From Nitrospirota bacterium (GTDB lineage Bacteria > Nitrospirota > Thermodesulfovibrionia > Thermodesulfovibrionales > Dissulfurispiraceae): a stretch of DNA of 51,736 nucleotides. The notes beneath the pieces are model-generated. The model searched no databases, had not been told where the DNA came from, and saw only the letters and a list, made by a program, of their open reading frames with translations. This document shows, in pieces, positions 24,096-41,674 of this stretch (its first letter is position 1; each line of letters opens with the position of its first letter). A program made the position numbers and the translations under genes. The DNA is taken from the NCBI GenBank assembly GCA_004321915.1, contig SCQE01000070.1, forward strand, positions 1-51,736. The letters are read 5' to 3'.

Positions 24096-24861
24096 ACTTA
24101 TCGAACTTCTCGGCGCCTATATCATAAAGTTCACAGAGGAACTCGGAAGGGTCCTGCTTCTTTTAGGCAATACAACAAGGCTTATTCTGCTCCCCCCGTT
24201 CGAAGCAAAAAGTGTCTTGAAGCAGATGATAGAGGTAGGCATAAAATCTTTGCCGGTCGTTTTGATCACCGCTGTTTTTACCGGAATGGTCTTGGCGCTC
24301 CAAAGTTACACCGGCTTTAAAAGGTTCGGGGCTGAGTCCATGGTGGCGTCCGTAGTGGCCCTCTCTATGACGAGAGAGTTGGGGCCGGTGCTCACAGGCC
24401 TGATAGTCGCGGGCAGGGCCGGGGCCGCTATGGCGGCTGAATTAGGCACCATGCGGGTCACGGAGCAGATAGACGCGCTCGAAACCTTGGCTGCCAATCC
24501 TGTTAAATATCTTATAGTGCCGAGATTTATAGCCGGCCTGATAATGCTGCCCGCCCTCGCTGTTATCACCGACATTGTAGGGATACTCGGAGGTTATTCG
24601 GTGACTGTCGGGCTGTTCGGGACCAGCTCCACGACATACTGGAAGCGCACATGGGACTATCTTAAGATGGACGATATCTATTACGGCATACTGAAGGCCT
24701 GCTTTTTCGGGGGCTGCATAGCGCTGATAAGCTGTTACCGGGGTTTTTATTCCGAAGGCGGCGCCGAGGGCGTCGGCAAGGCCACGACGAGCGCGGTTGT
24801 TTTGTCCTCGATGACGATATTGATCTCGGACTACTTTCTTTCTGCGTGGCTGTTCAAATGA
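24088..24861 (+). CDS. mlaE: MlaE-family ABC permease, phospholipid transport
   Basis: 257 residues with about five or six membrane segments. The conserved MlaE/YrbE core is clear: GMVLALQSYTGFKRFGAE, LTRELGPVLTGLIVAGRAGAAMAAELGTMRVTEQIDALE. It forms the inner-membrane channel of the MCE lipid transporter with MlaF and MlaD, coded next with 4-base and 1-base overlaps. Overlap with alr suggests co-transcription with the preceding run. mlaB and mlaC are not seen here. Confidence 0.93.
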   Translation: MVRLIELLGAYIIKFTEELGRVLLLLGNTTRLILLPPFEAKSVLKQMIEVGIKSLPVVLITAVFTGMVLALQSYTGFKRFGAESMVASVVALSMTRELGPVLTGLIVAGRAGAAMAAELGTMRVTEQIDALETLAANPVKYLIVPRFIAGLIMLPALAVITDIVGILGGYSVTVGLFGTSSTTYWKRTWDYLKMDDIYYGILKACFFGGCIALISCYRGFYSEGGAEGVGKATTSAVVLSSMTILISDYFLSAWLFK

Positions 24862-25607
24862 TAGAGGTTTCAGGGCTGAGCAAATCTTTCGGCAAGAAGC
24901 AGGTGCTCAGGGGCGCGAACCTGCGCGTCGAAAGAGGCGAGAGCATGGTCGTTATCGGCGGCAGCGGTTCTGGAAAAAGCGTGCTTATCAAGCATATAAT
25001 AGGGCTTCTAAAACCTGACGAAGGCAGGGTGTCGGTCGAAGGCAAAGACATTACAGGTCTCGACGAAAAAGGCCTATATGAAGTCCGGCGTAAATTCGGC
25101 ATGCTTTTTCAGGGCGCGGCGCTTTTTGATTCTCTGAACGTCTGGGAGAATGTCAGTTTCGTTCTCCTGAGAGATAAGCATATGAGCAGGTCTGACGCGA
25201 GAAGGGTGGCCACCGAAAAACTCAAGATGGTCGGGCTTGCCGGAGTCGAGGACTTAATGCCTTCGGAGCTTTCGGGCGGTATGAAAAAGAGGGTGGGCTT
25301 GGCCCGCGCTATAGCCTATGAACCCGAGATATTGCTTTACGACGAGCCTACGACGGGCCTCGACCCTATAATGGCCGACGCTATTAACGATCTTATAATA
25401 GAGATGAAGAGGGAGCTTTCGGTGACGTCCATAACGATAACGCACGATATGCACAGCGCGTACAAGATCGCCGACAGGATATCTATGCTCTACTTAGGCG
25501 AGATAATAGAAACCGGAACACCCGAGCAAATAAAAAATACCGGGAACCCCATAGTGCGGCAGTTTATCAGCGGGAGCGCTGTGGGCCCGATAAAGGTGAT
25601 AGATTGA
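24858..25607 (+). CDS. mlaF: MlaF-family ABC transporter ATPase
   Basis: 249 residues. Walker A GGSGSGKS, Q-loop MLFQGAALFDSL, signature LSGGMKKRVGLARAI, Walker B ILLYDEPTTGLDP and switch His (THDMHSAY), all in order. Energises MlaE for lipid transport. ATG 24858 makes an ATGA overlap with mlaE and begins MIEVSGLSK, the usual start; a GTG four codons upstream is less likely. It ends in TGA overlapping the mlaD ATG. Confidence 0.95.
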   Translation: MIEVSGLSKSFGKKQVLRGANLRVERGESMVVIGGSGSGKSVLIKHIIGLLKPDEGRVSVEGKDITGLDEKGLYEVRRKFGMLFQGAALFDSLNVWENVSFVLLRDKHMSRSDARRVATEKLKMVGLAGVEDLMPSELSGGMKKRVGLARAIAYEPEILLYDEPTTGLDPIMADAINDLIIEMKRELSVTSITITHDMHSAYKIADRISMLYLGEIIETGTPEQIKNTGNPIVRQFISGSAVGPIKVID

Positions 25608-27100
25608 TGAAAAATTACTCGACGGAACTGAAGGTTGGAATTTTTGCGATAGTGGTGCTGTTGGTGCTTTCTTTCATGACCTTCAATGTGGGCGGTTTTA
25701 AATGGATGCAGAAGGAAGGGTATGTGATTTACGCATACTTCAGCAACGTGGTGGGTCTGGATAAAAACACGAAGGTCAAGATAGCGGGCGTCGATGCCGG
25801 GACTATCGAGGCAATAACGCTCGACGGCGGCAGGGCCAAGGTCAAAATAAAGATCTACAAGGGCATCAATGTTTACGCCAATGCCTCCGCTTCGGTAAAG
25901 ACGAGCGGTCTGCTGGGCGACAAGTTTCTTGAAATAAAGCCGGGAACTCAGGAGCCTGCGCTCAAAGACGGCGACACGATAGCCAACGCCGCCGAAGTGA
26001 CCGATGTTGACGACCTGATACGCAATATCTCAAAGGTGGCCGGAGATATAGGCGGGCTTACGTCATCAGTCAACGACGTGCTCGGTTCGGAAGCCTCCAA
26101 GAATGCGCTCAAGGAATCCATACTGGCGTTGAGGGAAATCACCGGCAATCTGAACAACGCGATAGTTTACAACGACAAGAAGCTCCGCAAGGTTCTGGAC
26201 AATATCGACGACCTCACGGCCTCTCTGGGCGAAGTCATAAAGACCAACAAGGAGCCGTTCAGGGAAACTCTGGCCAACTTCAAGGATTTCACAGGCACGC
26301 TGAAAACGGACGGGCCCTCGCTTATAAAAAGCCTCCAGACCACAACGAGCGAGCTTAAATCCATGCTCGAGGAAAACAGGCCCTCCCTGAAGAGTACTGT
26401 CGAGAACATAGACAAGATAAGCCAGAAGATCGAGAAGGGCGAAGGCACTCTCGGCAAACTGGTGAATGACGAAAGGCTTTACGAATCCGTCAACAAGGCA
26501 GCCGACGGCCTCGGCAAGACCCTCAGCGCGGTCGACAGGTTCAGGACTTTCATTACCTTTCAGGGCGATTATCTGTCCCGCCACAGCGACGCCAAAGGGG
26601 CTTTTTCCGTCACTCTTCAGCCTAAACCCGAAAAGTATTATGTGCTCGGCATAGTGAGCGATCCGGTCGGCAAGGTCACATCCACGGAAACGATCACTAA
26701 CGGCGTAAGCGTCAAGGAAGAGAAGATAGAGAAAAAAATAAAATTTTCGGCCCAGTTCGCGAGGAGACTCAAGGACCACCCCCCGTTCGAAGATACTGCG
26801 CTGAGAATAGGGCTTACGGAGAACACTCTTGGCGTAGGCGCGGACTATTTTATGATGCAGGACAAATTGAAGCTCAGCGTCGACGCTTGGGATTTCGGAC
26901 ATGAGGAGTACAGGTCCAAGAATGCCCATGTGAAGTTGGGGGCGGACTACTTTTTGTTCAAGAATATCTTCATTTCTGCCGGTTATGACAATATACTGAA
27001 CGCCAAGAACAACGGCGTATATGTAGGCGGCGGCCTGCGTTTTGAGGACGAAGATTTCAAATACCTGTTCGGCAACATGCCTAAGGTTCCCGGAAAATAA
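25607..27100 (+). CDS. mlaD: MCE-domain MlaD protein with C-terminal beta-barrel-like domain
   Basis: 497 residues, far longer than E. coli MlaD (183). One N-terminal membrane segment (~8-28), then the MCE domain (YVIYAYFSNVVGLDKNTKVKIAGVDAGTIEAI...LLGDKFLEI). A long helical stretch (~120-310), with repeated leucine heptads, would form a needle-like bundle. The last ~180 residues alternate strands such as RIGLTENTLGVGADYF and NAHVKLGADYFLFKNIFISAGYDN, ending GGGLRFEDEDFKYLFG, resembling an outer-membrane strand hairpin domain. This could span the periplasm. Start ATG 25607, overlapping the mlaF stop by one base. Confidence 0.9.
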   Translation: MKNYSTELKVGIFAIVVLLVLSFMTFNVGGFKWMQKEGYVIYAYFSNVVGLDKNTKVKIAGVDAGTIEAITLDGGRAKVKIKIYKGINVYANASASVKTSGLLGDKFLEIKPGTQEPALKDGDTIANAAEVTDVDDLIRNISKVAGDIGGLTSSVNDVLGSEASKNALKESILALREITGNLNNAIVYNDKKLRKVLDNIDDLTASLGEVIKTNKEPFRETLANFKDFTGTLKTDGPSLIKSLQTTTSELKSMLEENRPSLKSTVENIDKISQKIEKGEGTLGKLVNDERLYESVNKAADGLGKTLSAVDRFRTFITFQGDYLSRHSDAKGAFSVTLQPKPEKYYVLGIVSDPVGKVTSTETITNGVSVKEEKIEKKIKFSAQFARRLKDHPPFEDTALRIGLTENTLGVGADYFMMQDKLKLSVDAWDFGHEEYRSKNAHVKLGADYFLFKNIFISAGYDNILNAKNNGVYVGGGLRFEDEDFKYLFGNMPKVPGK

Positions 27101-28393: not shown

Positions 28394-29668
28394 ATGTCCG
28401 GTAATATTCACCAAAAGCTTATTCTACGCCTTGCTCTGGCATGGTTTGCTCTGTCCATAGTCATAGGCACTGTTATCTACTTTATCGAGCATGAGAAGAT
28501 CGATGATTTTGTCGTAGGCCTTGCCGAAAACGAGGCGAAGAAATTTCTTGCAGATGAGATAAAGTATATGACTAACCTCACCCCGTCCAATATCGACATT
28601 CTTCTCAAGAAAAGTCAGGAGCATCTTCTGTCGGGCGGTTTTTCCATAGTCGAATTTTATGACAAGGACAAAAAACAGATCATCGAGCTCTCCCGAAAGG
28701 GCATGGAAGCCCTCGAATTGAAGATGGACATCCTCAGGCATGACCGTCTTATGACAGAGACCACGCAGTACGAGAAGATACATATAGACGACCAGATGTT
28801 CGTAAGGGTGCTGACCCCGTTAAAAACTCCCGAAGGGAAGATTGTAGGCTTTTTTGAGGGGGCTTACCATGTAGAGCCAAGAATAATGAAGGACATAAGA
28901 GACCGTGTGCTTTTTTCTCTTGTTCAGGCGGTAATAACGGTCCTCATCGCCACTGTAGTCCTATACCCGATCATAATTGCGCTCAATAAAAGCCTTATCA
29001 GGTATTCGATAGACCTGTCCGACGCGAATATGGGCATGCTGGAAGTGCTCGGCAATGCGATTGCAAAAAGAGACAGCGATACGAATGAGCATAATTACAG
29101 GGTCACCATCTATGCGATCAGGCTTGCCGAGACGATGAATTTAAGCGCCGGAGAGATTAGGGAGTTGATCAAAGGCGCATTTCTTCACGATGTGGGGAAG
29201 ATTGCAATAAGCGACAGCATACTCCTTAAGCCGGGGAAATTGACCGTGGAAGAGTTTGAGGTCATGAAAACGCATGTCGTACACGGAGAGGAAATCATCG
29301 GGAGTTATGCATGGCTGCAGGATGCCGTAAAGGTTGTGCGTAATCATCACGAAAAGTATTCGGGGACCGGGTATATGAACGGGCTCAAGGGTGATGCCAT
29401 TCCGGTCACTGCAAAAATATTTGCGGTAATCGATGTCTTCGATGCCCTGACCTCCAAGCGCCCGTACAAAGAGGCTTTTTCCTTCGAGAAGTCGATGCAG
29501 ATCGTAAACGACGGGAGAGAAGAGCATTTTGACCCTGTCGTTCTGGATGCATTCGGTAAAATAGCCCAATCCCTCTACAATGAGGTACATGAAGCGGACG
29601 CAGGATATTTGAGGGCCGAGCTGCGGACATCGATAAACAAATACTTTAATACCGATCCCGGACTATGA
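28394..29668 (+). CDS. Membrane-bound HD-GYP phosphodiesterase with degenerate GYP
   Basis: 424 residues. Membrane segments ~10-30 and ~173-197 flank a periplasmic sensor loop (~31-172, no recognised family), followed by a cytosolic HD-GYP domain: H233, HD 265-266 (FLHDVGK), H294, HH 318-319, then GTGYM (324-328) in place of GTGYP. Metal ligands are intact, so c-di-GMP hydrolysis is likely but the GYP partner-binding motif is altered. GGGAG precedes the ATG. Its neighbour is the exported DUF4384 protein. Confidence 0.85.
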   Translation: MSGNIHQKLILRLALAWFALSIVIGTVIYFIEHEKIDDFVVGLAENEAKKFLADEIKYMTNLTPSNIDILLKKSQEHLLSGGFSIVEFYDKDKKQIIELSRKGMEALELKMDILRHDRLMTETTQYEKIHIDDQMFVRVLTPLKTPEGKIVGFFEGAYHVEPRIMKDIRDRVLFSLVQAVITVLIATVVLYPIIIALNKSLIRYSIDLSDANMGMLEVLGNAIAKRDSDTNEHNYRVTIYAIRLAETMNLSAGEIRELIKGAFLHDVGKIAISDSILLKPGKLTVEEFEVMKTHVVHGEEIIGSYAWLQDAVKVVRNHHEKYSGTGYMNGLKGDAIPVTAKIFAVIDVFDALTSKRPYKEAFSFEKSMQIVNDGREEHFDPVVLDAFGKIAQSLYNEVHEADAGYLRAELRTSINKYFNTDPGL

Positions 29669-29696
29669 CCTAAGATAATTTTCTTGTGTCCCTCAC

Positions 29697-29726
29697 TTGC
29701 ACCGTCTCTAGGCTATTCTGTAAACT
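29697..29726 (+). promoter_or_regulatory. Weak promoter-like sequence before the DUF4384 gene
   Basis: TTGCAC (29697-29702), 18-base spacer, TAAACT (29721-29726), 25 bases before the ATG. Both boxes are partial matches. Position fits a promoter for the DUF4384/CHAT/DUF4139 set. Confidence 0.3.
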
Positions 29727-29750
29727 GTTGCATATCTAAAAGGAGCCACA

Positions 29751-30620
29751 ATGAAGAAACCTTCGCATATAGTTTTTATATTGGTCCTGTTCCTTTTACC
29801 CTGCAGAATCGTCGACACCCCTCTTTATGCCGCACAATCGACCATAGTGGAAGCCGAAGGCTATGCCTGCATGGGGGATGATAAATCCAGAAAACAGACC
29901 GAACAGTCCGCAATGACGGACGCTAAGAGAAAGGCAGCAGAAAAGGCCTTGACTTACATTCAGAGTGAAACCCGCATAAAGGACATGGAACTCGAAAAAG
30001 ACCTTGTCTCCGCCTATGCCGACGCGCAGGTGAAAGTCATCGATGAATCGGTCGGAAAATGGTATAAGGAAGCTGCGACAGGGGAGTGTTACAAATTATC
30101 GATCAAGGCAGAGGTGATACCGGACACAAAGGCAATAGACAAAATGTCACAAGGTGACTCATACAGCCCGACAGCCCCGCTTAATGTGAGGGTGTGGACC
30201 GAAAAGAAGGACTACAAGCAGGGCGAAAAGATAAAAATTTACATCCAAGGCAACAAGCCGTTTTATGCGCGTGTGCTTTATGCGGATGTTAAGGGCGAAA
30301 TGCTCCAGCTGTTGCCTAATCCTTACAGGACCGACAATTACTTCAACGGGGGCGTGGTTTATGAAATCCCGTCCGGCGGCGATAAATATGAACTCGAAGT
30401 AAGTCCTCCGTTCGGGGAGGAGAATGTCATAATATATTCGAGCACGTCGCAGCTTGGGGACATTAATTTAAAGACAGAGGGCGGCGTTTATTATGTTGAC
30501 ACCAAGGCAAAGGACATCGGAAATAAAACGAGAAGCGTAAAGATCAAGTCGCTGTCCGACAAAAAAAGTGTGGTGTCGGAGTTCTATGAGGGAAAAGCTA
30601 CCGTTAGAACAGGGAATTAG
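29751..30620 (+). CDS. Exported DUF4384-domain protein
   Basis: 289 residues with a Sec signal peptide (~1-28). The middle (~30-125) is a Lys/Glu-rich helical LPP20-like stretch with regular AMTDAKRKAAEKAL repeats. A DUF4384-like domain (~140-245) shows RVWTEKKDYKQGEKIKIYIQGNKPFYARVLYADVKGEMLQLLPN, as in domains often attached to kinases and caspase-type proteases, where a role in binding is suspected but unproven. Good AAGGAG before the ATG. The next gene encodes a TPR-CHAT protease, so a functional link is plausible. Confidence 0.75.
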   Translation: MKKPSHIVFILVLFLLPCRIVDTPLYAAQSTIVEAEGYACMGDDKSRKQTEQSAMTDAKRKAAEKALTYIQSETRIKDMELEKDLVSAYADAQVKVIDESVGKWYKEAATGECYKLSIKAEVIPDTKAIDKMSQGDSYSPTAPLNVRVWTEKKDYKQGEKIKIYIQGNKPFYARVLYADVKGEMLQLLPNPYRTDNYFNGGVVYEIPSGGDKYELEVSPPFGEENVIIYSSTSQLGDINLKTEGGVYYVDTKAKDIGNKTRSVKIKSLSDKKSVVSEFYEGKATVRTGN

Positions 30621-30705
30621 CTGCCCGCCCCGATTACAGCCCCATTTTCAAGAAACTCGATTTTAGCGGACCCGGACCGGAAGAACTGGAATGGAGAAAA
30701 TATTC

Positions 30706-33700
30706 ATGAATAAGATAAAAATATTGTTGCTCGTTATGCTTGTCTTAGGAATTTCAGGCAACGCAACTGCTCAGGTCAAAGATGAAGCGGAGAGGTTGTG
30801 GGAACTGGGAGAAAAGGCGTTTGAGGCAGGCAGGCATAAGGAAGCGGTTTCGTATTATGAAAGGTCTTTATCGAGATGCGGCGGGAACCCGGAATGTGTG
30901 GCGTCAAATAAAAACGGACTCGGCAGGGCCAACGAAGAGTTGGGTGATTACAGAAAAGCGCTCTCGTATTATGAGGATGCGCTGAAGTCTGCCAAGCAGA
31001 TCGATCACAGGGATTTTATCGCCACAAATCTTTTTAATGCCGGGGCCATTTATGGCCAGAACATGGGACAGAATGAAAAGGCCTTTTCCATGTTCGAGGA
31101 GGCGCTGCGGATATTCAGGGAGTTGAATGACAGGGAGAGCGCGGCCATTGTCCTGTTTAATCTGGGCAAGGCCGCTAATTCCTTAGGCAGGTACGACAAA
31201 GCGCTCGCCTATTTCAATGAGTCGCTCAGGATGAACAGGGAAAAGAACAATCAGAATGCAATAGCGGGCAATCTCAATCTTATCGGCAATGTATATTCAA
31301 ACATGGGGCAGCACGATAAAGCGCTCTCATATTATCAAGAGGCGCTTGCGATAAACAGAAGAATAAATAATCAGGGTGAAATAGCCATATCGCTGCGCAA
31401 TATCGGGGACGCCTATTGCGCTTTTATAGAACACGATAAGGCCCTCGCCTATTACAACGAAGCTTTGGCCATCCAGAGGAAACAGAATTCCCGCGACGGC
31501 ATTTCCATAACCCTGACCAACATCGGGGCTTATTACAAAGACCTGAATCAATACGACAAAGCGCTTTCTTATTATCAGGAAGCCCTAAAGATCGGCCAAG
31601 AACTGGATAACCCTGCCATGAGGGCCACCAACCTCAGTAATATGGGGGACACATACGCTGCTCTGGGGAGTTCGGACGCTGCTATGTCACATTACCGGCA
31701 GGCATTGAACATCGAGAAGCAGCTTAACAGGCCCAGACAAAGAGCGATACTCCTGAATAATATCGGCATGGAATATTTCCGTCTCGGCCGATATGAAGAG
31801 GCCCTGCGCAGCCTTAACGAGGCCCTCGAAATAGAGAGGAAGCTGGACAATCCGCATAATATCGCGGCGAGACTCAATAACATCGGGGCTGTGTATCTCA
31901 GCCAGAAACGTTACAGGGAGGCAGAGGATGTGTTTCTCGAGAGAAAAGGCGTGGGAAAGAGGATCACCAAGACCAGACTGATACATGCCGGATTGGTACA
32001 GGTCTATCTTGCGGCAAAACGGTACAACGAGGCGTCCGCATTGCTCGAAGAGCTGCCTCCGACATGGAGGGACAACAGGAACCGGCGTATGGAATACCAT
32101 ACGCAATACGGTCAGGCATTGAAGGGCAGGGGCCTTTCGGTGAGGTCGGCGCAGGAGTTGTTAAAGGCGGTTGATATCGTCGAAGAGGTAAGAAGCGCGG
32201 TTGGCGATAGAAGCGGATTTTTTGCCGGCGGCGGGTACATAGGCCGTTTGACGCCTCACAGGGAGCTTGCTGCCGTTCTTGCTGAAATGGCGGTCAGGGG
32301 CGAAAGAGCGGATGAGGTCTTTCGTGTTTACGGCAAAGACGCTGCGTCGAGCGGTTTTTATTTCTCCGAGATGACAAAGGCGCGTACGCTTCTTGAAGCA
32401 ATGTCAGTCTCTGCAAGGAAATACGATGCCCCGGAAATCCCGTCAGGAATAAAAAACAGGGAGTCCCGGATACTTAAGGAGCTTTCAGACATAAAAGACG
32501 GCTGGGAAAATGCGTTTGCAAAAGGCGAGACTGCCTTAAAGAGGCTTTCGCAGAGAAAGGACGAGCTTAATAGAGAACTCGATTCTCTTATCTCCACGCT
32601 GAGAAGAGATTTCCCCCGGTATGCCGCGATAAATTACCCGAGTCCGATACATGCCGAAGATATACCTCTAAAAGAGGGTGAGGTCTTGATCGAGTTCGGG
32701 ATAAGCAGCGATTCTGTTGCCGTATTCGTGGTCAGAAAAGGCGGGGTGCATAAGATACATAAAATAAACGTTTCGGCCGAGGAGCTTTCCGTAAAGGTAA
32801 AAAAGTTTATAGAGCCATTAAACACGGGCAGAGACACCGATTTTTCTACCGGTCTCGCAAAAGAACTGTATAGTCTGCTGCTTGCCGATGCGCTGAAGGA
32901 TGTTAAGGACACCGAAAGGCTTATAATTGTTCCGGACGGGCTTCTCGGTCTGCTTCCATTCGATGCCTTGGTCATAAAGGAAGGCGGAGATTATAAAGAT
33001 AGCCTTTATGTGGGTGACAGATGGACGATAACTTATGCGCAGTCAGCAACGGCCCTTGCATTGACAAGGCTTTTGAAACCCTCGACCGCTGTAAAGCCCC
33101 TTTTTGCGATCGGCAATCCGATATACGATAAGTCCGATCCGAGGTATATTTCATATAAGCAAGGCGAAATGCAGACTGTTGCCCAAAAAGACCTGAAGCA
33201 ATATGCCTATCGCGGGATTACCGTAGTGCCTAAGCCGGACAAGACCGGAGACGTCGTTGCATGGGAGGATGTCGAGTATCCTCCGCTTCCGGAGACTGAG
33301 GATGAGATAAAGGCGATCGCAAATATCTTCGGCGTAAGACCGGAACAGCCGGATGTGCTTCTGAATGTTTCGGCATCGGAGACAGGATTCAGAAATGCCG
33401 CGCTCAAGGATTATCGCTACCTGCATTTTGCCGTGCATGCGGACCTGCCGGGGAAAGTCCAAGGACTGAAAGAGCCTTTTATCATACTCGGACAGGTCGA
33501 AAATAAGGGGCGCGACGATGGTTTTCTGACCCTTAGCGAAGTGCTCGAATTAAAGCTCAATGCGGATATGGTGGTTTTGTCGGCCTGCTCTACAGGCAGG
33601 GGAAAGATGCTCGAGGGAGAAGGCGTGGCGAATTTTGCAAGGGCATTCCAGCATGCGGGCGCAAGCAGTGTTATCGTAAGCCTATGGGAGGTTGCATCCG

Positions 33701-33852
33701 GGCCTGCCGTGGAATACATGAAGATATTTTATACTCATTTGAAGGGGGGCGCAGGCAGGGCAAAGGCCTTAAGGCTCGCAAGGAATGAGATGAAGTCAAA
33801 GTATCCCAATCCGTTTTACTGGGCCGTGTTTATGCTGCACGGAGAAGGATGA
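30706..33852 (+). CDS. Exported TPR-CHAT (caspase-fold) protease
   Basis: 1,048 residues. A signal peptide (~1-22, ending NATAQ) is followed by about nine or ten tetratricopeptide repeats of ~40 residues (~25-420; KALSYYEEAL-type motifs). A helical linker comes next. Residues ~670-1,045 form a CHAT domain. The likely dyad is H911 (LHFAVH) and C961 (VVLSACSTGRGK), the caspase-clan pair; flanking motifs IVPDGLLGLLPFDAL, EGVANFARAFQHAGASSVIVSLWEVASGPA and NPFYWAVFMLHG match. Start 30706 is preferred for its GGAGAAA site; an ATG at 30691 is in frame. It overlaps in orientation and spacing (32 bases) with a DUF4139 gene. Protein substrate unknown. Confidence 0.9.
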   Translation: MNKIKILLLVMLVLGISGNATAQVKDEAERLWELGEKAFEAGRHKEAVSYYERSLSRCGGNPECVASNKNGLGRANEELGDYRKALSYYEDALKSAKQIDHRDFIATNLFNAGAIYGQNMGQNEKAFSMFEEALRIFRELNDRESAAIVLFNLGKAANSLGRYDKALAYFNESLRMNREKNNQNAIAGNLNLIGNVYSNMGQHDKALSYYQEALAINRRINNQGEIAISLRNIGDAYCAFIEHDKALAYYNEALAIQRKQNSRDGISITLTNIGAYYKDLNQYDKALSYYQEALKIGQELDNPAMRATNLSNMGDTYAALGSSDAAMSHYRQALNIEKQLNRPRQRAILLNNIGMEYFRLGRYEEALRSLNEALEIERKLDNPHNIAARLNNIGAVYLSQKRYREAEDVFLERKGVGKRITKTRLIHAGLVQVYLAAKRYNEASALLEELPPTWRDNRNRRMEYHTQYGQALKGRGLSVRSAQELLKAVDIVEEVRSAVGDRSGFFAGGGYIGRLTPHRELAAVLAEMAVRGERADEVFRVYGKDAASSGFYFSEMTKARTLLEAMSVSARKYDAPEIPSGIKNRESRILKELSDIKDGWENAFAKGETALKRLSQRKDELNRELDSLISTLRRDFPRYAAINYPSPIHAEDIPLKEGEVLIEFGISSDSVAVFVVRKGGVHKIHKINVSAEELSVKVKKFIEPLNTGRDTDFSTGLAKELYSLLLADALKDVKDTERLIIVPDGLLGLLPFDALVIKEGGDYKDSLYVGDRWTITYAQSATALALTRLLKPSTAVKPLFAIGNPIYDKSDPRYISYKQGEMQTVAQKDLKQYAYRGITVVPKPDKTGDVVAWEDVEYPPLPETEDEIKAIANIFGVRPEQPDVLLNVSASETGFRNAALKDYRYLHFAVHADLPGKVQGLKEPFIILGQVENKGRDDGFLTLSEVLELKLNADMVVLSACSTGRGKMLEGEGVANFARAFQHAGASSVIVSLWEVASGPAVEYMKIFYTHLKGGAGRAKALRLARNEMKSKYPNPFYWAVFMLHGEG

Positions 33853-33884
33853 TTGAAAGAGATACGTCAAAGGAGGAAGTTGTC

Positions 33885-35501
33885 ATGAACAGAAATGTTT
33901 TCTCAGCCGCTATTCTGGTTTTTTCTTTTGTATTTTTTAATAATGCACCGGTCTTTTCCGCAGAGACCGTGCCTGCGCCGAAAATCCGGAGCATTGTACT
34001 CTATCCTGACAGCGCAATGATAAAGAAAGAGGCTGTAGTTGCGGTCAGAAAGGGTGAAAATATAATAACTGTTTCCGGGTTGACCGTAAATTTGACGGAC
34101 GAGTCGGTCCAAGTGAATATCAATGAAAAGGCTTCTGTCAGGATATCCGATGTCGGGGTCGAAAAGACCTATCTGCATAAGACGATGCATGATAAAATCC
34201 GGGACCTTCAAGCGAAGCTCGACAGCCTCAATGACCTCATAAATACAAACTCAAACGAAATAGCGGCCATAAAAAGCTCGATAGAATTCCTGAGGAAAAT
34301 AGTTCCGTTCCCGCAAAACCAGAAGGTCACACAGGCCGAGGTTGAAAATCATGCCAAGTTTATAGAAAAATCGTCCTCGGCAAATTACGAGAGGGTCGCA
34401 AAACTCGAAAACAACATCAAGAAGCTCACTGAGGAAAAGAAATCATTGGAGAATGAACTTAAGGGTCTGCGAGCGTCGAGGGACGAGAGCAAAACGATCA
34501 GAATCAAGCTGCTCTCGAATGTTGCTAAGGAAATCGATCTGGGGCTCTCATACATAGTTACAAAAGCGGGTTGGTCTGCTCAGTACGAGGTAAGGGCCGA
34601 CTCCGTTACAGGCAAGATCGATATTGCCTGCTATGCAACCATAATCCAAGCTACAGGAGAAGATTGGAAGAATGCGGACATAGAGATATCTACCGCAAGG
34701 CCTGTCTACGGGCCCGCTCCGGAGCTGTCGGCATGGTATGTGGATATCTTCAAGCCGAGGGTCCCGGTTTATAAATCCAAGAGGTCTATGGAGGACGCGG
34801 ACATGCAGATGATGAGCATGGAAAAGGCCTCTGCAATGGCGCCGGCGCCGGTATTCGAAGAGCCGAAGATAAAGACAGAGGCCACCTCGTTCAGTTTTAT
34901 GATACCCGGCAAGGTCGATATATCGGCGGACAACCAACCGCACAGGATATTGATCGCATCCTCGTCAAAAGAGGCGAAACTGGACTATTATGCTGCGCCT
35001 AAACTCTCGCGTTACGCGTATCTGAAGGCGGAAATAAAGAACCCGTTTTCATTTCCGATCATATCGGGACAGATGAATGTATTTCTCGACGGGCGTTTTG
35101 TGAATACGACGGCCGTTGATGAGCAGATACTTCCGGACGGTGATATGAATTTGCAGCTCGGAATCGACGAAGGGATCAAGGTCGAGAAAAAGCTGGTGAA
35201 AAAGTTCACCCAATATTCGGGAGTTGTCTCTAAGGATGCCCATATCGGCTATGAATATACTATCGATATTGCCGGCGCGAAAGACAAAGAGATAGGTATC
35301 AATATCAAAGATAATTTCCCTGTATCGAGAAACGAGCAGATAAAGGTCTTTCTCGATTCGCCAAAAAAAGAAGAGGCCAAGCTTTCTGACGACGGGATAA
35401 TATCTTGGGATTTAAAGCTCAAGCCCAATGAGAAGAAGACCCTGAAAACTAAATTCAGGATCGAATATGCCAAGAACTTGAAGATTACGGGGTTGGAATA
35501 A
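33885..35501 (+). CDS. Exported DUF4139 (mucoidy inhibitor MuiA-like) protein
   Basis: 538 residues with a Sec signal peptide (~1-28, ending FSAET). DUF4140-like N-terminal domain (YPDSAMIKKEAVVAV...TVSGLTVNLTDESVQV), a coiled coil (~100-205, KLDSLNDLINTNSNEIAAI and KLENNIKKLTEEKKSLENEL), then the DUF4139 domain with YIVTKAGWSAQYEVRADS, ATGEDWKNADIEISTARP and the late FPVSRNEQIKVFLDSPKK. Role unknown; one family member affects mucoidy in other bacteria. ATG 33885 has AAGGAGG 8 bases upstream; an in-frame ATG at 33849 is less convincing. Confidence 0.85.
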   Translation: MNRNVFSAAILVFSFVFFNNAPVFSAETVPAPKIRSIVLYPDSAMIKKEAVVAVRKGENIITVSGLTVNLTDESVQVNINEKASVRISDVGVEKTYLHKTMHDKIRDLQAKLDSLNDLINTNSNEIAAIKSSIEFLRKIVPFPQNQKVTQAEVENHAKFIEKSSSANYERVAKLENNIKKLTEEKKSLENELKGLRASRDESKTIRIKLLSNVAKEIDLGLSYIVTKAGWSAQYEVRADSVTGKIDIACYATIIQATGEDWKNADIEISTARPVYGPAPELSAWYVDIFKPRVPVYKSKRSMEDADMQMMSMEKASAMAPAPVFEEPKIKTEATSFSFMIPGKVDISADNQPHRILIASSSKEAKLDYYAAPKLSRYAYLKAEIKNPFSFPIISGQMNVFLDGRFVNTTAVDEQILPDGDMNLQLGIDEGIKVEKKLVKKFTQYSGVVSKDAHIGYEYTIDIAGAKDKEIGINIKDNFPVSRNEQIKVFLDSPKKEEAKLSDDGIISWDLKLKPNEKKTLKTKFRIEYAKNLKITGLE

Positions 35502-35516
35502 GTCCGGGAATCAGGC

Positions 35517-36008
35517 ATGAAACTTCAGCGGACCATCTTTACGGCATTTCTGATGTTTGTCGTCGATGCCTTTGTTTTTAACCAGTTCACGATTGCCGGG
35601 GCCACCCTCTTCATAGGGGCGCCTGTGCTGCTTGTAAAACTGTTCAGGGATAGGAAAGATAGAGATAGGGTAAGGCTTCTGCTGGCAAAGGCGGGTATAT
35701 ATGCCCTTATGATCATTCTTGTTTTTGCAGCATCGGCGCTTAACAATATGGTTGCGGAAGAGCGTGCAAAGGATGTTATTGCTGCCTGCGAACGGTTCAA
35801 GGACAAGAACGGACATTATCCTGCACAGCTTTCCGAACTCGTTCCGGACTTTCTGGCGAAAGTGCCGGGTGCAAAATATTCATTGGTTGGAAGCGATTTC
35901 CGCTACATTGTACGTCAGGACAGTCACTCTCTCATGTATGTCACGGTCCCTCCGTTTGGCAGGAAATATTACGGATTCGAAAAGAAAGAATGGGTGTGGG
36001 CGGATTGA
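35517..36008 (+). CDS. Small membrane protein with pseudopilin-like region
   Basis: 163 residues. Hydrophobic segments at ~9-42 (likely two) and ~60-80 precede a soluble part, VIAACERFKDKNGHYPAQLSELVPDFLAKVP, which matches the type II secretion GspG-like pattern seen in many pseudopilin and housekeeping-pilin proteins. A cleavable prepilin leader is not evident. It follows the DUF4139 gene by 15 bases. No secretion genes are near. Identity uncertain. Confidence 0.65.
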   Translation: MKLQRTIFTAFLMFVVDAFVFNQFTIAGATLFIGAPVLLVKLFRDRKDRDRVRLLLAKAGIYALMIILVFAASALNNMVAEERAKDVIAACERFKDKNGHYPAQLSELVPDFLAKVPGAKYSLVGSDFRYIVRQDSHSLMYVTVPPFGRKYYGFEKKEWVWAD

Positions 36009-36152
36009 TGACCGAAAGGCCTACAAATCCAAGACAGCAGTAGATGCAAGGTGATAAGGTTTGTAAAAACGCCAATTATGTTATATTTGATAACAAAATA
36101 AGAGGAAGCTTTTATCTTGAATGGCAACAACACAATAAATGATAGAGGCATT

Positions 36153-38054
36153 ATGACAAAGCTGAAAGAAAAAGAACAGACAATCCTGATAGCTGACGAC
36201 GAACTGCTTGTGAGGGAAGTCCTGTCCGAGATGCTGACCGCGCACGGTTATGTCGTGGATGCCGTATCTAACGGTCTGGAAGCCTATGAGCAATACAAAA
36301 AAAACAGCGACTACACTCTGATCATCTCCGATATGATCATGCCTGTCATGTCGGGTCTGGACCTGTTGAAAAAACTCCGGGAAGAAGGCAGCGATATCCC
36401 GGTGATCATTCTTAGCGGTTCGTACGATGTTTCAGCGGCCGTCGAAGCCATAAAATCCGGAGCGAGCGATTATGTGCTCAAGGGCCAAGACGCCGAAGAA
36501 GCTGTCATCATATCGATACAGAAGGCGCTCGAAAAACAGCAGATATTGAGGAGCAACAAGCGGTTGGTCGAAGACCTTGCCGAGAAATCCAAGCAGCTGG
36601 AGACCTTTAATAATGTGCTTAAAATAACCGTGGACAAACTGACCAAGGTCGGGGCCTCGCTTATGTCCGAGAGAAGTCTTGCCAAGCTTCTCGATATGAT
36701 TGTGAGGGAGTCCCGGGACGTGACCAATGCGGATGGAGGCACTCTTTATGTTCTGGAGGACGACCTGCTTCATTTCAAGATATCGCAGAACAGGTCTTTG
36801 AACATTTTCTTGGGCGGCATCGACGGTGGACCCGCGATGTTCCCGCCGCTGGCGCTGAATGAGAATTACGTTTCCGCTTATGCGGCCATGAAAAAAGAGA
36901 TCGTGAACATACCCGATGTTTACAAATCGGACCAATTTGACTTTACAGGTCCGAAGCGTTTCGATGAGTCCGCCGGTTACAATACAAAGTCCATGCTCGT
37001 GCTGCCTATGATCGACAGGCAGGGCGTGGTCATAGGGGTGCTGCAGCTTATTAACTCCATAGACCCCGATACAACTGAGATAGTGGAGTTCAACGAAAGC
37101 CTCATCGCGATTGCACAGGCGCTGGCCTGTCAGGCGGCAGTCTGTATAGAAAATGCCAAGAGCTATGAAACCATTCAGAAAAAGAATATTGCCTTCGGAC
37201 GCTTTGTACCTAACCAGTTCCTGAATTTTCTGGGTAAGGTGGAAGTCGAGCATGTTAACCTCGGCGATGCTACCGAGCAGGAACTTTCGGTACTCTTTTC
37301 GGACATCCGCCAATTCACGAGCATCTCGGAAAAACTGACTCCCGAGGAGAACTTCCGTTTTCTGAACGAATACCTCAGATACATAGGCCCCGTAATAACA
37401 GGCAACGGCGGTTTTATAGACAAATACATAGGCGATGCGATAATGGCGCTTTTCCCGGGCATACATGCCGGGGTTGCCGACGACGCGGTCATCGCAGCCA
37501 TAGGGATGCGGCGCAGACTTTCGGAATACAACGAAGAAAGAAAAAAGTCCGGACAGGCGTCCATAGATATAGGGATCGGGATCAATACAGGCACTATGAC
37601 CTTGGGCACCATAGGGTTCGAAACCAGAATGGACAGCACCGTTATAGGCGACACCGTGAACCTAGCCTCCCGTATCGAGGGAATAACGAAGAAGTACGGC
37701 ATCCCCATTGTGATATCGGAATTTACTATAAGGGAATTGAGGGGGCCCGGAAAGTTCCATATCCGTGAGATTGACATAGTCAGAGTAAAGGGCAAGGAGG
37801 AACCGATCACCGTATACGAGATTTTCGATGCGGACCCCGAAGGCGTAAAAGAAGCCAAGATAAAAAACCTGAAGGCCTACAACGAAGGCCTCTCCTTGTA
37901 CAGGGCACATAGGTGGGAAGACTCCCTTAAGGTTTTCAGCGGGCTGGACAAACTGTTGCCAGCGGATGACGTTGTCAGGCTCTACAGCGAAAGATGCAGA
38001 AATTTTATCGAAGCGCCGCCTGAAAGGTCTGACGATTTGGTAGTGAGACTGTAA
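36153..38054 (+). CDS. Receiver-GAF-class III nucleotide cyclase
   Basis: 633 residues. REC domain (~9-125; D60 in ISDMIMP, Lys in VLKG), coiled linker, GAF domain (~170-340), class III cyclase (~355-560), and a TPR-like tail. Cyclase metal residues appear in VLFSDIRQFTS and DKYIGDAIMALF, and the transition-state pair in VIGDTVNLASRIEG, so activity is predicted, making cAMP or cGMP. It may be phosphorylated by a kinase elsewhere. A TATATT box lies ~65 bases upstream. Start could alternatively be TTG 36117, which has AGAGGA upstream. It converges on the substrate-binding protein gene. Confidence 0.9.
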   Translation: MTKLKEKEQTILIADDELLVREVLSEMLTAHGYVVDAVSNGLEAYEQYKKNSDYTLIISDMIMPVMSGLDLLKKLREEGSDIPVIILSGSYDVSAAVEAIKSGASDYVLKGQDAEEAVIISIQKALEKQQILRSNKRLVEDLAEKSKQLETFNNVLKITVDKLTKVGASLMSERSLAKLLDMIVRESRDVTNADGGTLYVLEDDLLHFKISQNRSLNIFLGGIDGGPAMFPPLALNENYVSAYAAMKKEIVNIPDVYKSDQFDFTGPKRFDESAGYNTKSMLVLPMIDRQGVVIGVLQLINSIDPDTTEIVEFNESLIAIAQALACQAAVCIENAKSYETIQKKNIAFGRFVPNQFLNFLGKVEVEHVNLGDATEQELSVLFSDIRQFTSISEKLTPEENFRFLNEYLRYIGPVITGNGGFIDKYIGDAIMALFPGIHAGVADDAVIAAIGMRRRLSEYNEERKKSGQASIDIGIGINTGTMTLGTIGFETRMDSTVIGDTVNLASRIEGITKKYGIPIVISEFTIRELRGPGKFHIREIDIVRVKGKEEPITVYEIFDADPEGVKEAKIKNLKAYNEGLSLYRAHRWEDSLKVFSGLDKLLPADDVVRLYSERCRNFIEAPPERSDDLVVRL

Positions 38055-38072
38055 CGGAAAAGCTTCGTACGT

Positions 38073-38972
38073 TCAACAGCCGTGTATATCTGCGATCAGC
38101 GAAGTGTCGAATATTTCATCGGCCCCTATCTCTCGTTCTATGTATCCTAAAGTTTTCATCGCCAGCATTAACTTCATAGTGCAGTTCGTGTAAGCTTCGG
38201 TTATCCGGGCGCAATATTTTGGTGAAACGGACAGGGTCTCAAAAACGAAATCTTCATCGATGACCCCGACATTTCCGGCTATAAGGGCTGCGGCTTTACG
38301 CGGATCGTTTAGTAATAGTTCGGTCGCCAGACAGTGTGCTTTTAGAAAATCGATAACTATGTCCCTGTGGGCTTCGAGAAAAGATTTCGTTGTCAGTATG
38401 CCGTAGCTCGGATTGTCGGGCCACAGTTTTGAGGGCGGATATAATATTTTGCAGTCGGCGTAACGCCTTGCGGCAACGGCGAGCGCCGGGGTCCCGAAGG
38501 CCGCTTCGATCCTGTGTTTTACAAGGTCTTCGAGCGTCAGGTCAGACCATGGGTAGTTCACAACCTCGATAGCTTGCCTAAGGCCGTATTTTTGCAGAGA
38601 GTCCTGAAGTATCAAATCGTGGATCGAGCCCTTTCCCGGAACACCGATTTTCCCGCCTTTAAACTGGTTTAAGATCAGTTCGAGACTGTCGGTCTCAGGC
38701 AGTCCTTTGTATTTATTAAATCCTGTCATGACGGTGCCTTCGACATGGCCTCCCGCTACGCATTTGATCGGCACTCCTCTCTGTATCCCTATTATGGCCG
38801 GAGGGAGTCCGATATATGCGATGTCCAGTCCGTTTTTTTCCAAGGCGTCCACAATTGCAGGGCCTGTTCCGAAAAGCCGCCACTCAGCGTCAGCGTGAGG
38901 GCCGACAGCTCTGTCCATTAAGATTGTTGCGGTGTGATAAAAAGTGGAGAGGTGGCCGATCCTGAGCTTCAT
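38073..38972 (-). CDS. NitT/TauT-type ABC substrate-binding-like protein lacking signal peptide
   Basis: 299 residues, SsuA/THI5-like periplasmic-binding fold: LRIGHLSTFYHTATILMDRA, IAYIGLPPAIIGIQRGVPIKCVAGGH, GGKIGVPGKGSIHDLI and TLEDLVKHRIEAAFG. It starts at ATG 38972 directly with the fold, and shows no hydrophobic signal, so it is probably cytosolic or a diverged sensor. No ABC permease or ATPase is next to it. ATGA overlap with the caspase-like gene upstream implies co-expression. Ligand unknown. Confidence 0.8.
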   Translation of the reverse strand: MKLRIGHLSTFYHTATILMDRAVGPHADAEWRLFGTGPAIVDALEKNGLDIAYIGLPPAIIGIQRGVPIKCVAGGHVEGTVMTGFNKYKGLPETDSLELILNQFKGGKIGVPGKGSIHDLILQDSLQKYGLRQAIEVVNYPWSDLTLEDLVKHRIEAAFGTPALAVAARRYADCKILYPPSKLWPDNPSYGILTTKSFLEAHRDIVIDFLKAHCLATELLLNDPRKAAALIAGNVGVIDEDFVFETLSVSPKYCARITEAYTNCTMKLMLAMKTLGYIEREIGADEIFDTSLIADIHGC

Positions 38973-41050
38973 TTTCTCAGGATGAACCTGCCTGCAATTT
39001 CTTCGGGAGACGGTCTTAAAGTCGGGGTCTGGAGAACATTGCGCCTTCTCGCCTCGTCTTCGACGAGCGGCCTGATTGTCTTGTAAATTTCAGAAAGCTC
39101 TTTTTTGCCGTCTTTTATCGCCTTGAGAAAGTGGTAAGTGAACAGGCCGTGCTCTTTTTCCGAGAGCGTGGTCGAAATCTGGGGGCCTTCGGTCGATAAG
39201 ATCAGCGCGACTTTCCCGGAGGCCATCAGCGGGTCCTGCACTTTGACTACGGCGGGCCGCGCGCCTTTTGCTAGCACGCTTCTGCCGCCTGCGCCGGAAA
39301 AGCATGAATCTATGACTACTATGACCTCGTCGGCGTTAAGCTTCGAAAGCGTTTCGTAAAACCGTTTAAGAGGATAAGCCGTTGCCGTCAAATAGTTGGG
39401 GTCGCCGTCATGAGGCATAAGATAAGGCTCTCCTGTGGCCGGGTCCGGCGAGCCGTGTCCGGAATAGTAAACGAATACACGGCTCTTACGGACTGTCCTG
39501 TTTGGAAGCCAGTTTTCGAGAGACTTCACCATGCCTGACAATGTAGCCCGTTCATCGGTCATAAATTCTATGTTTCTTTCTGCAAAACCGAGCGCGCGCA
39601 GGTATCCTCTTACCGAACGGGAATCGTTGTAAGAAAATTCGGAGGACGGGAGGTTCTGATATTTTTCGATGCCTATTACGACCGCCACATCGTGTTCTCC
39701 GAACGCCTTCTGTGTATCCGCGACCGACGGGATAAGATTGACATCAGGGAGGTCGTCAGTTTTGACTCCGGTTTGAGGGGAGGCTTCCACCTTTACGGTC
39801 ATTATGTCGGGGGCTTCCTCTCCGAGCGTGAGCAGGATTTCTGGCCGTATGGAAAATTTCTCCCTCCTTTCCCTGAGCGCAAAACGTATCGGGAGCTCTT
39901 TGTCTCCGCCGTATCTCTGTGTTACCGCGAACCTGAAGGAGGCTTTTTTGTGTTCTCCGGGGGATATGGAGCCGAGTTGCACCTTGCTGCCGCTGAAAAG
40001 CTTTATGCCCTCGTGCTCCGCTTCGATTGCAGCGTAGACCCTTTTTGCTGCGCCGCTTCCCGCATTGTGGACGGTCAGCGTGGCTGTGATTTCTTTGCCC
40101 TTGCCGATGGTTTTTTTTCCATCCGCATCGACTATGTCTATTCTTGTTACCTGAAGAGCGGGAGGGGCGAGCTGTTTTGTCCTGAATACCAGTATTGCCG
40201 GTTTTGAATCGAAGCCGTTCGGTTCGGCCACCGTTGCCTTTATGCTGATTTCCGCGCCCTGCACACCCGATAAAGCCTCGATAGGCAGTTCGAATGTTTT
40301 CTCTTCCTTGGGCTGAATGGTCCCTATAGCGGTTTTATCATTGAACAGTATGTCCTTGTTCGGCTGTCCCGAGAATTCAAGCTTCAGTACCGTATCATAA
40401 GCCGTTCCGCGTCCTGCATTTTTGACGCTGACTTTTATGGAACCTTTTTCTTCGGCTTCCAGCGCGCCGTCAGCCGACTGCTCTCCCAGTCCGATGTTGC
40501 TGATGATCAGATCAGGAGGAGACCCGTACAACTGTTTTTCTCTTGCGCGCGGGGCGGCTGCGCTTGAAGCAGGCGCTTTCCGTTCCAGCACCACAACCGT
40601 GCGCGGATACCTGACTTTATCTTTCTGTATGTATTTTAATCTGACCTTGCTTCCGCTGCCCACGATTGCAGGGGATATTATCTCGTTTTTTTGTACGAAA
40701 AAGGTCCTTCCGTCCATACTGAATTCGCACTCCCTGTAACAGGAGCCCCCGATGGCCTTTGTGACCTTGATGGCCATGCTGCCGGAGGAGTTGTCGATAT
40801 AAATAATTTCTCCCTCAAGGTTATAGGACGAATAGCCCGCTTCAGGGTCTTCGTAACGGCGGTCGTTGTCTCTCCCTCTGAAATCAACCGGAGGGGCGCT
40901 TTTGAAGGAATCAGGTCTTGGCGGATATATGCCGCCTCCAAAGCCTGATTTGTCGTAAGGGGGGCCTGCATGCGCACCGGAAAAAGGGAACTGGAGCAAC
41001 AAACAAAAGGCCATCGCAACGTACAACAGTAATTTACGGAAACTGTTCAT
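38969..41050 (-). CDS. Exported caspase-like (C14) protease with Ig-like repeats
   Basis: 693 residues with a signal peptide (~1-29, ending GAHA). Middle: a SH3/OB-like strand region (~65-150), then two CARDB-like immunoglobulin domains (~165-275 and ~280-390; NAGRGTAYDTVLKLEFS and HNAGSGAAKRVYAAI). The C-terminal caspase domain (~430-690) starts DVAVVIGIEKYQNLP and holds a His-Cys dyad: H532 (YYSGHGSPD) and C583 (VVIDSCFSGAGG). These match metacaspase/paracaspase-like peptidases. No C-terminal anchor. It follows a seven-gene minus-strand run beginning with larC. A GTG five codons earlier is another start option. Confidence 0.9.
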   Translation of the reverse strand: MNSFRKLLLYVAMAFCLLLQFPFSGAHAGPPYDKSGFGGGIYPPRPDSFKSAPPVDFRGRDNDRRYEDPEAGYSSYNLEGEIIYIDNSSGSMAIKVTKAIGGSCYRECEFSMDGRTFFVQKNEIISPAIVGSGSKVRLKYIQKDKVRYPRTVVVLERKAPASSAAAPRAREKQLYGSPPDLIISNIGLGEQSADGALEAEEKGSIKVSVKNAGRGTAYDTVLKLEFSGQPNKDILFNDKTAIGTIQPKEEKTFELPIEALSGVQGAEISIKATVAEPNGFDSKPAILVFRTKQLAPPALQVTRIDIVDADGKKTIGKGKEITATLTVHNAGSGAAKRVYAAIEAEHEGIKLFSGSKVQLGSISPGEHKKASFRFAVTQRYGGDKELPIRFALRERREKFSIRPEILLTLGEEAPDIMTVKVEASPQTGVKTDDLPDVNLIPSVADTQKAFGEHDVAVVIGIEKYQNLPSSEFSYNDSRSVRGYLRALGFAERNIEFMTDERATLSGMVKSLENWLPNRTVRKSRVFVYYSGHGSPDPATGEPYLMPHDGDPNYLTATAYPLKRFYETLSKLNADEVIVVIDSCFSGAGGRSVLAKGARPAVVKVQDPLMASGKVALILSTEGPQISTTLSEKEHGLFTYHFLKAIKDGKKELSEIYKTIRPLVEDEARRRNVLQTPTLRPSPEEIAGRFILRK

Positions 41051-41095
41051 AATCAATGATAGCACACGAAATGACCGTAATCCATCCCGGTGTCA

Positions 41096-41674
41096 TTAAA
41101 GTCTTCCGCTGTTCTCGTACTCCCGGAGGTATTGTTTCAGGGCCCTCATTATAAGCCAGTCGACGGTGGTGTTATTTTCCGAAGCGATGTTCATCAGTTT
41201 GTCGATGACCTCTTTTTCGCTGCCCGAGAGCTGCTGGACGGGCGGTGCGGGTCCTTTTTCAGGAGACCCGGGCGCGGCATTCCCGGACCTTTTCAGGTAC
41301 TCTTTTTCGAGCATGGCCATAAGCTCTTTTACGTCTCCGGAGTTTACCGCTTTCACCATATCTTCGGGGACCTGAGCGTGCATTTCCCCGGTCTCGACGG
41401 GAGCGGCCGGCCCTTCGGAATCCGGCATAGGCGGCTGAGGCATGCAGCCCTGAGGCATCATCCCCGACATGCCGAGCATCATCATCGCCAGCGAGCGCGA
41501 CTGTTCGTTGTCGGGTAGTTCTTTTTTCATGAACTCCTCGATCTGTCCCGATGCCATGGCCATCGCAAGCCTGTCGGCCATCAGAGGCCCGTCAGGTTTC
41601 TCTTCGCTGAATCTGTTTTTGCCTCCGAAAGGCGTTGACGGCGGTTGGGGCAAGGGTTTTTCATTTTCTGACAT
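41096..41674 (-). CDS. Proline/methionine-rich protein with putative ribbon-helix-helix C-terminus
   Basis: 192 residues. The N-terminal ~60 residues are Pro/Lys/Glu rich, then a methionine- and proline-rich low-complexity tract (~60-92). The last ~42 residues, including IDKLMNIASENNTTVDWLIMRALKQYL, read like the two helices of a CopG/MetJ-type ribbon-helix-helix fold. No signal or membrane segment. AAGGAG precedes the ATG. It lies between the TlpA and caspase genes with gaps of 17 and 45 bases. The DNA-binding idea rests only on helix pattern; no family is recognised with confidence. Confidence 0.6.
   Translation of the reverse strand: MSENEKPLPQPPSTPFGGKNRFSEEKPDGPLMADRLAMAMASGQIEEFMKKELPDNEQSRSLAMMMLGMSGMMPQGCMPQPPMPDSEGPAAPVETGEMHAQVPEDMVKAVNSGDVKELMAMLEKEYLKRSGNAAPGSPEKGPAPPVQQLSGSEKEVIDKLMNIASENNTTVDWLIMRALKQYLREYENSGRL

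Follow-up and report, generated by a model that had tools for sequence, protein, structure and literature searches.

A DUF4384–TPR-CHAT–MuiA Gene Block in a Nitrospirota Genome as the Local Form of a Conserved Cluster Encoding Predicted Exported Caspase-Clan Proteases

Introduction

Prokaryotic caspases are usually presented as proteases of cell death, either cytosolic or anchored in the membrane, whose partners are unknown. Among the closest described enzymes, cyanobacterial orthocaspases are known to carry DUF4384, WD40 and CHASE2 as fused domains (PMC7475262), and C14B enzymes cleave after basic residues by means of two conserved Asp in the pocket (PMC6426788). An earlier survey reported a high caspase density in Nitrospirae (1.11 per 1000 proteins, from few genomes), together with operons of at most three caspases and 57% intact dyads (PMC3501461). 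Here, we analysed a 51,736-nt stretch of a Nitrospirota genome (contig SCQE01000070.1 of assembly GCA_004321915.1, hereafter the window), in which a protease with tetratricopeptide repeats and a CHAT domain (TPR-CHAT) is encoded close to a C14 caspase with CARDB domains (CARDB-C14). Four genes of the + strand (29751–36008), coding for DUF4384, TPR-CHAT, MuiA family and small membrane proteins and hereafter termed the CHAT block, are a remnant, i.e., this genome's form, of a widespread Nitrospirota envelope-protease cluster, as follows from the linkage of DUF4384 with TPR-CHAT and from the content of the cluster in relatives. With about even confidence, we propose that the cluster serves a signal-regulated proteolysis in the envelope by exported orthocaspase and CHAT proteases.

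The window corresponds to a single contig; the genome to which it belongs, coded G000, totals 3.63 Mb. The other G codes indicate the sampled Nitrospirota genomes (G001 being the sole congener of G000), f codes families, L codes fetched loci and C codes contigs.

Results

A Conserved Cluster in Nitrospirota

TPR-CHAT orthologues were found in 18 of the 396 sampled genomes of the phylum, most of them within a conserved cluster of 25–45 kb that also contains genes for DUF4384, predicted exported WD40-C14 caspases, a CHASE2-adenylate cyclase, FecR, MuiA, CRP, transglutaminase and MCE proteins and, in some relatives, for a serpin with Lys at P1. In G006 (932–990 kb) and G018 (78–121 kb) the order is LarC, FecR, DUF4384, WD40-C14, CHASE2-cyclase and TPR-CHAT, after which G018 has MuiA and G006 another WD40-C14; in both, these are followed by serpin, WD40-C14, MCE genes, CRP, FlgT_N, CsgG and a lipoprotein with an S-layer homology (SLH) domain; small transmembrane and FlgT_N-TPR genes are additionally present in G018. 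Many of the same parts lie on a single strand across 27 kb in G193, and variants occur in G054, G051, G043, G130, G137, G227 and G013/G022. The initial annotation had looked to conserved neighbourhoods for support of a single system, and DUF4384 does share one cluster with CHAT and C14 genes in G006, G018, G051, G054, G130, G137, G193, G227 and the distant G106.

Outside the taxonomic order of the window genome, DUF4384 accompanies a WD40-C14, TPR-CHAT or C14 gene in G106, G096, G066, G120, G169, G072, G102, G255 and G375, at times joined by the CHASE2-cyclase, and it adjoins TPR-CHAT in a metagenome-assembled genome of Myxococcota (L156). The cluster was not described in the literature searched (open-licence papers): exported caspase-like proteases with a constant partner, cyclases and, in some members, a serpin thus make up a previously undescribed cluster across one phylum, as far as export is predicted from the sequences.

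In the relatives, the gene partner found closest to the clan-CD proteases is DUF4384. It is linked to TPR-CHAT, at 20 bp to 15 kb, in 12 of the 14 Nitrospirota genomes with both genes placed (G000, G006, G018, G030, G031, G051, G054, G130, G137, G193, G227 and G366), G059, where the placement falls at contig ends, being left out of the 14; in the other two, G001 and G072, the genes are on different contigs, that of G072 being just 13.8 kb. TPR-CHAT co-occurs with type-A DUF4384 (9/10 vs 7/51, Fisher P 6e-6), and 26 of the 38 DUF4384 genes in 61 genomes lie ≤5 kb from a C14 or CHAT gene, where about one was expected. A placement model over nine genomes gave P ≈2e-10 for DUF4384 and 3e-5 for C14, but the P values overstate independence because the sampled genomes are related. 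A sounder argument is the recurrence across families f1, f2, f10, f11, f19, f25, f28 and f35; in f1, f2, f10, f11, f25, f28 and f35, DUF4384 is accompanied by a protease gene and often by the CHASE2-cyclase too.

The content of the cluster would also fit surface assembly or quality control, with the cluster building or maturing a surface layer and the proteases processing exported proteins rather than acting in signalling or death. The SLH-domain lipoprotein, CsgG, transglutaminase, FlgT_N proteins, a GNA1162-like TPR lipoprotein and the MCE genes point this way, as do a C14 caspase fused to an SLH domain in G022 (C7:26236–28203, L144) and the role of HetF, a CHAT protein, as a divisome component (PMC8406250). 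However, no obvious shared substrate gene, e.g., for a large repetitive surface protein, is found inside the cluster, and many caspases together with a serpin exceed simple processing; we thus regard this alternative as possible but unlikely.

Two further observations concern single loci. A stop-broken, split TPR-CHAT remnant still lies beside a shortened DUF4384 gene in G257 (C82:10063–14900, L201). The MlaF-like ABC ATPase of the cluster MCE operon (L119:12366–13004 and homologues, cluster 4) is short (213 aa), with a weak ABC_tran match (32 bits), and is possibly degenerate.

Catalytic Dyads and Fold of the Proteases

The dyads named by the initial annotation (H911/C961 and H532/C583) were both recovered, here as H916/C966 and H537/C588, since residues were counted from longer open reading frame (ORF) starts and are five higher. 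H916 and C966 are invariant across 16 TPR-CHAT orthologues, 50–78% identical to the window protein, whose CHAT domain, of 354 aa at 32788–33849, far exceeds the PF12770 cut-off (199 bits vs 24); H537 and C588 are invariant across eight C14 proteins. More widely, both His and Cys are present in 62 of the 67 fetched C14 domains, the exceptions being truncated or split ORFs. Pairs of active and inactive caspases, an idea prompted by the published 57% dyad conservation, were also considered and dropped because every complete C14 domain in the clusters keeps both residues.

As anticipated in the initial annotation, the C14 catalytic residues are placed in a caspase fold, judging from the structure model. 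In the AlphaFold model (mean pLDDT 62; caspase domain mostly 65–89, with a poor loop at 590–613), His and Cys lie towards the ends of strands 528–540 and 578–589, and VIA-align superposed it on Arabidopsis metacaspase 4 with a Z of 21.8 (212 residues, 2.4 Å) and on MALT1 with a Z of 20.8. In the TPR-CHAT model the strand order fits, with the His in strand 910–918 and the Cys at the end of strand 960–966; VIA and Foldseek searches with this model gave matches covering the TPRs alone, uninformative on the CHAT fold. Sequence searches of the PDB with the C14 domain, CHAT domain, DUF4384 and MuiA gave no useful match.

Two acidic residues, D481 (kept in 63/67 C14 domains) and D586 (62/67), would correspond by motif position to the published Asp pair of the C14B S1 pocket.

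C14 caspase genes also occur in rows of six, consecutively on one strand over ≈11 kb, in G000 (C92:24008–35325, L135/L136) and G001 (C39:12138–22393, L139), while the largest caspase operon in the earlier survey had three (PMC3501461). Most N-termini in these rows are lipoprotein-like and all six members have H-C dyads; in G000, a PIN-like toxin gene paired with an antitoxin-like one breaks the row.

Serpins and TPR-CHAT History

Serpins are rare (5/60 genomes; 13/396), but of the five found in 60 relatives, four belong to the cluster, with G006, G018, G039 and G051 carrying a cluster serpin. G356 has one more, beside two cluster genes (DUF2330-like and TPR-PDZ). The cluster serpins score 410–421 bits against PF00079, and all five aligned serpins have the inhibitory hinge EEGTEAAAAT and, counted from it, Lys at P1. 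Metacaspases are inhibited by plant and algal serpins (PMC10609998), and a P1 Lys would suit a protease cleaving after basic residues.

The TPR-CHAT tree resolved two well-supported clades, each with Nitrospirota plus Thermodesulfobacteriota or Myxococcota members. The family of the window genome has members in both clades. This topology implies transfer, or an old duplication with loss; linkage to DUF4384 is also seen in both clades.

MuiA, Cyclase and the Cell-Death Alternative

The MuiA protein, of DUF4140-DUF4139 architecture, scores well above the TIGR02231 cut-off (345 vs 112.6 bits), and MuiA is linked to CHAT or WD40-C14 genes in G018, G054, G031, G043, G022 and G013; a link between MuiA and clan-CD proteases was not found in the literature searched. 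The cyclase gene next to the CHAT block has an orthologue at ≈2 kb from MuiA in G001 as well. In the relatives, CHASE2-cyclase and CRP genes within the cluster suggest a cyclic-nucleotide control.

The window cyclase domain matches Pycsar cyclase (PycC) profiles, and bacterial conflict systems use CHAT and caspase domains as effectors (PMC10907252; PMC8195603). Programmed cell death or anti-phage conflict, with the proteases killing or lysing the cell upon infection or stress, was therefore weighed. The protease N-termini, however, indicate export; the window C14 protein scores 73 bits with the EACC1-associated caspase model NF047832, below the cut-off of 140; no NACHT/STAND, TIR, gasdermin-type or Cas protein occurs among the neighbours scanned, nor does a Pycsar effector, although no search was aimed at effectors. 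These findings make a death system very unlikely.

Organisation of the Window Locus

The genes of the locus are listed in Table 1; their order, strands and architectures agree with the initial annotation. Besides the scores given there, the Guanylate_cyc match (75 bits) exceeds the Pfam curated cut-off, as do those of CHAT, C14, CARDB, DUF4384 and DUF4139. The + and − gene sets are convergent, with 18 bases between them, and the TPR-CHAT and C14 proteases are 5.1 kb apart. The four genes of the CHAT block have operon-like spacing, with intergenic gaps of 70, −4 and 15 bases. Hydrophobic N-terminal segments in the DUF4384, TPR-CHAT, MuiA and C14 proteins indicate their export and constitute the only ground for it; such a segment is present in the small membrane protein too, and was not seen on inspection of the N-termini of the cyclase and the substrate-binding-like (SBP-like) protein.

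Table 1. Genes of the window locus, with coordinates, strand and supporting matches.
Feature	Position (nt)	Strand	Evidence
Predicted exported protein, FlgT_N-like N-terminus and DUF4384	29751–30620	+	PF14326 85 bits; hydrophobic N-terminus
Predicted exported TPR-CHAT protease, dyad H916/C966	30691–33852	+	PF12770 199 bits and TPRs
Predicted exported MuiA family protein, DUF4140-DUF4139	33849–35501	+	TIGR02231 345 bits; PF13598 179 bits
Small membrane protein (cluster 22)	35517–36008	+	Hydrophobic N-terminal segment; in G018, G022 and G013, homologues in the vicinity of CHAT, caspase or MuiA genes
Receiver-GAF-class III cyclase, cytosolic	36117–38054	+	PF00072, PF01590, PF00211 above cut-off
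SsuA/NMT1-like SBP-like protein	38073–38972	−	PF13379 56 bits
Predicted exported CARDB-C14 caspase (orthocaspase), dyad H537/C588	38969–41065	−	PF00656 63 bits; CARDB 40 bits

Every gene of the window set has an orthologue in G001, at 68–82% DNA identity. Orthologues of the genes at 28394–41674 are spread over several G001 contigs, a strong gene-order shuffling within one genus. The SBP-like gene, with no evident signal peptide, is probably incidental to the system; it still lies beside CARDB-C14 in G001 despite the rearranged neighbourhood.

The pairing of the two window proteases proposed in the initial annotation did not hold in the congener, where the CHAT and C14 orthologues are on separate contigs (C64 vs C61). 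With 14 C14 genes in the window genome, the probability that one falls by chance within 5.2 kb of CHAT is 0.03–0.05. Moreover, CHAT-linked caspases elsewhere are mostly WD40-C14 and not CARDB-C14, and, outside the genus, relatives of the window CARDB-C14 are partnered by a different type of DUF4384 (G059:C53; G006:C1, 973–981 kb). The window CARDB-C14 gene is thus without a specific tie to the CHAT block. The same unlinking in G001 and the same chance probability would suit a wholly accidental arrangement, in which the protease genes are unrelated to each other and just happen to neighbour a cyclase and an SBP-like gene; accident, however, does not explain the CHAT block, as its genes are also found together in other families, and we consider it quite improbable for the locus as a whole. 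We conclude that the CHAT block forms a genuine module and that its C14 neighbour may be a coincidence. As to the claim of one envelope proteolytic system, the joint recurrence of clan-CD proteases, DUF4384, MuiA and cyclase stands, and the window C14 as partner of the window CHAT finds no support.

Two other candidates were rejected. The window is not a genomic island, its guanine-cytosine content being flat (0.48–0.52). The window MCE genes (24088–27100) were not taken as the equivalent of the MCE genes of the relatives' cluster, and were omitted from the parts, because their G001 counterparts are near the C14 gene and not near CHAT.

Discussion

Intact dyads, acidic S1 positions, clustered serpins with P1 Lys, and the CHASE2-cyclase with CRP led us to propose a regulated envelope proteolysis with DUF4384 as constant partner. 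In such a system, a signal from the envelope or from within the cell would be passed to a class III cyclase, of the CHASE2 type in relatives and of the receiver-GAF type in the window. Its cyclic nucleotide, possibly cyclic AMP, would act on the CRP-type regulator that the clusters of the relatives encode. Cysteine proteases of clan CD, namely TPR-CHAT and WD40-, CARDB- or ankyrin-C14 orthocaspases, would then be made and exported; outside the inner membrane, their TPR, WD40 and CARDB repeats may mediate the recognition of substrates or partners, and both CHAT and C14 proteases would cleave after basic residues. DUF4384, also exported in this proposal, might be a constant partner that adapts or activates the proteases or is cleaved by them, and the serpin would restrain the proteases in the relatives that carry one. 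The "regulated activation" of the initial annotation is, likewise, something we infer.

Some observations, besides the relatedness of the genomes behind the P values, weigh against a signal-regulated envelope proteolysis with the CHAT block as its local form. The window orthologues are on five contigs in G001 (CHAT on C64, DUF4384 on C50, C14 and SBP-like on C61, small membrane protein on C57, MuiA and cyclase on C41), so that tight linkage is inessential. The window cyclase is of the receiver-GAF and not of the CHASE2 type of the relatives, and its placement may be coincidental. Neither G000 nor G001 has a serpin, confidence is low for the CHAT domain in the structure model (pLDDT 50–65), and four distant TPR-CHAT loci (L157, L160, L161 and L162) show no DUF4384 within up to 10 kb on each side.

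A bolder form of the proposal, a bacterial envelope caspase cascade in which exported CHAT and C14 proteases cutting after basic residues are induced by cyclase and CRP, assisted by DUF4384 and checked by a serpin in some species, appears doubtful; if true, it would represent a bacterial protease–serpin regulatory pair outside the inner membrane. In any case, a cluster that links predicted exported caspase-clan proteases to DUF4384, to signalling by cyclases and, in some relatives, to a serpin offers concrete hypotheses on protease activation and restraint.

Comparison with Known Systems

The MuiA protein has the domain architecture of the mucoidy inhibitor family (TIGR02231), with a score above its cut-off. 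With HetF and with the TPR-CHAT protein Csx29 of type III-E CRISPR, the window TPR-CHAT shares TPRs and a CHAT domain with H and C motifs, but, unlike them, it is exported by sequence prediction and partnered with DUF4384; no Cas effector gene, as expected for Csx29/Craspase, was present among the scanned neighbours, the window not being scanned exhaustively for Cas. The association of a basic-P1 serpin with a metacaspase-type protease recalls the plant AtSerpin1–metacaspase 9 pair (PMC10609998), from which it differs in being a putative pair that is bacterial and encoded in a single gene cluster, with no serpin in the window genome. With orthocaspases and metacaspases (C14B), the C14 domain, the H-C dyad, the acidic S1 positions and WD40 fusion are shared. 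Unlike in the cyanobacterial orthocaspases, however, DUF4384, CHASE2-cyclase and caspases are separate genes of one Nitrospirota cluster, which, unlike known orthocaspases, combines predicted exported proteases with CHAT and, in some relatives, with a serpin.

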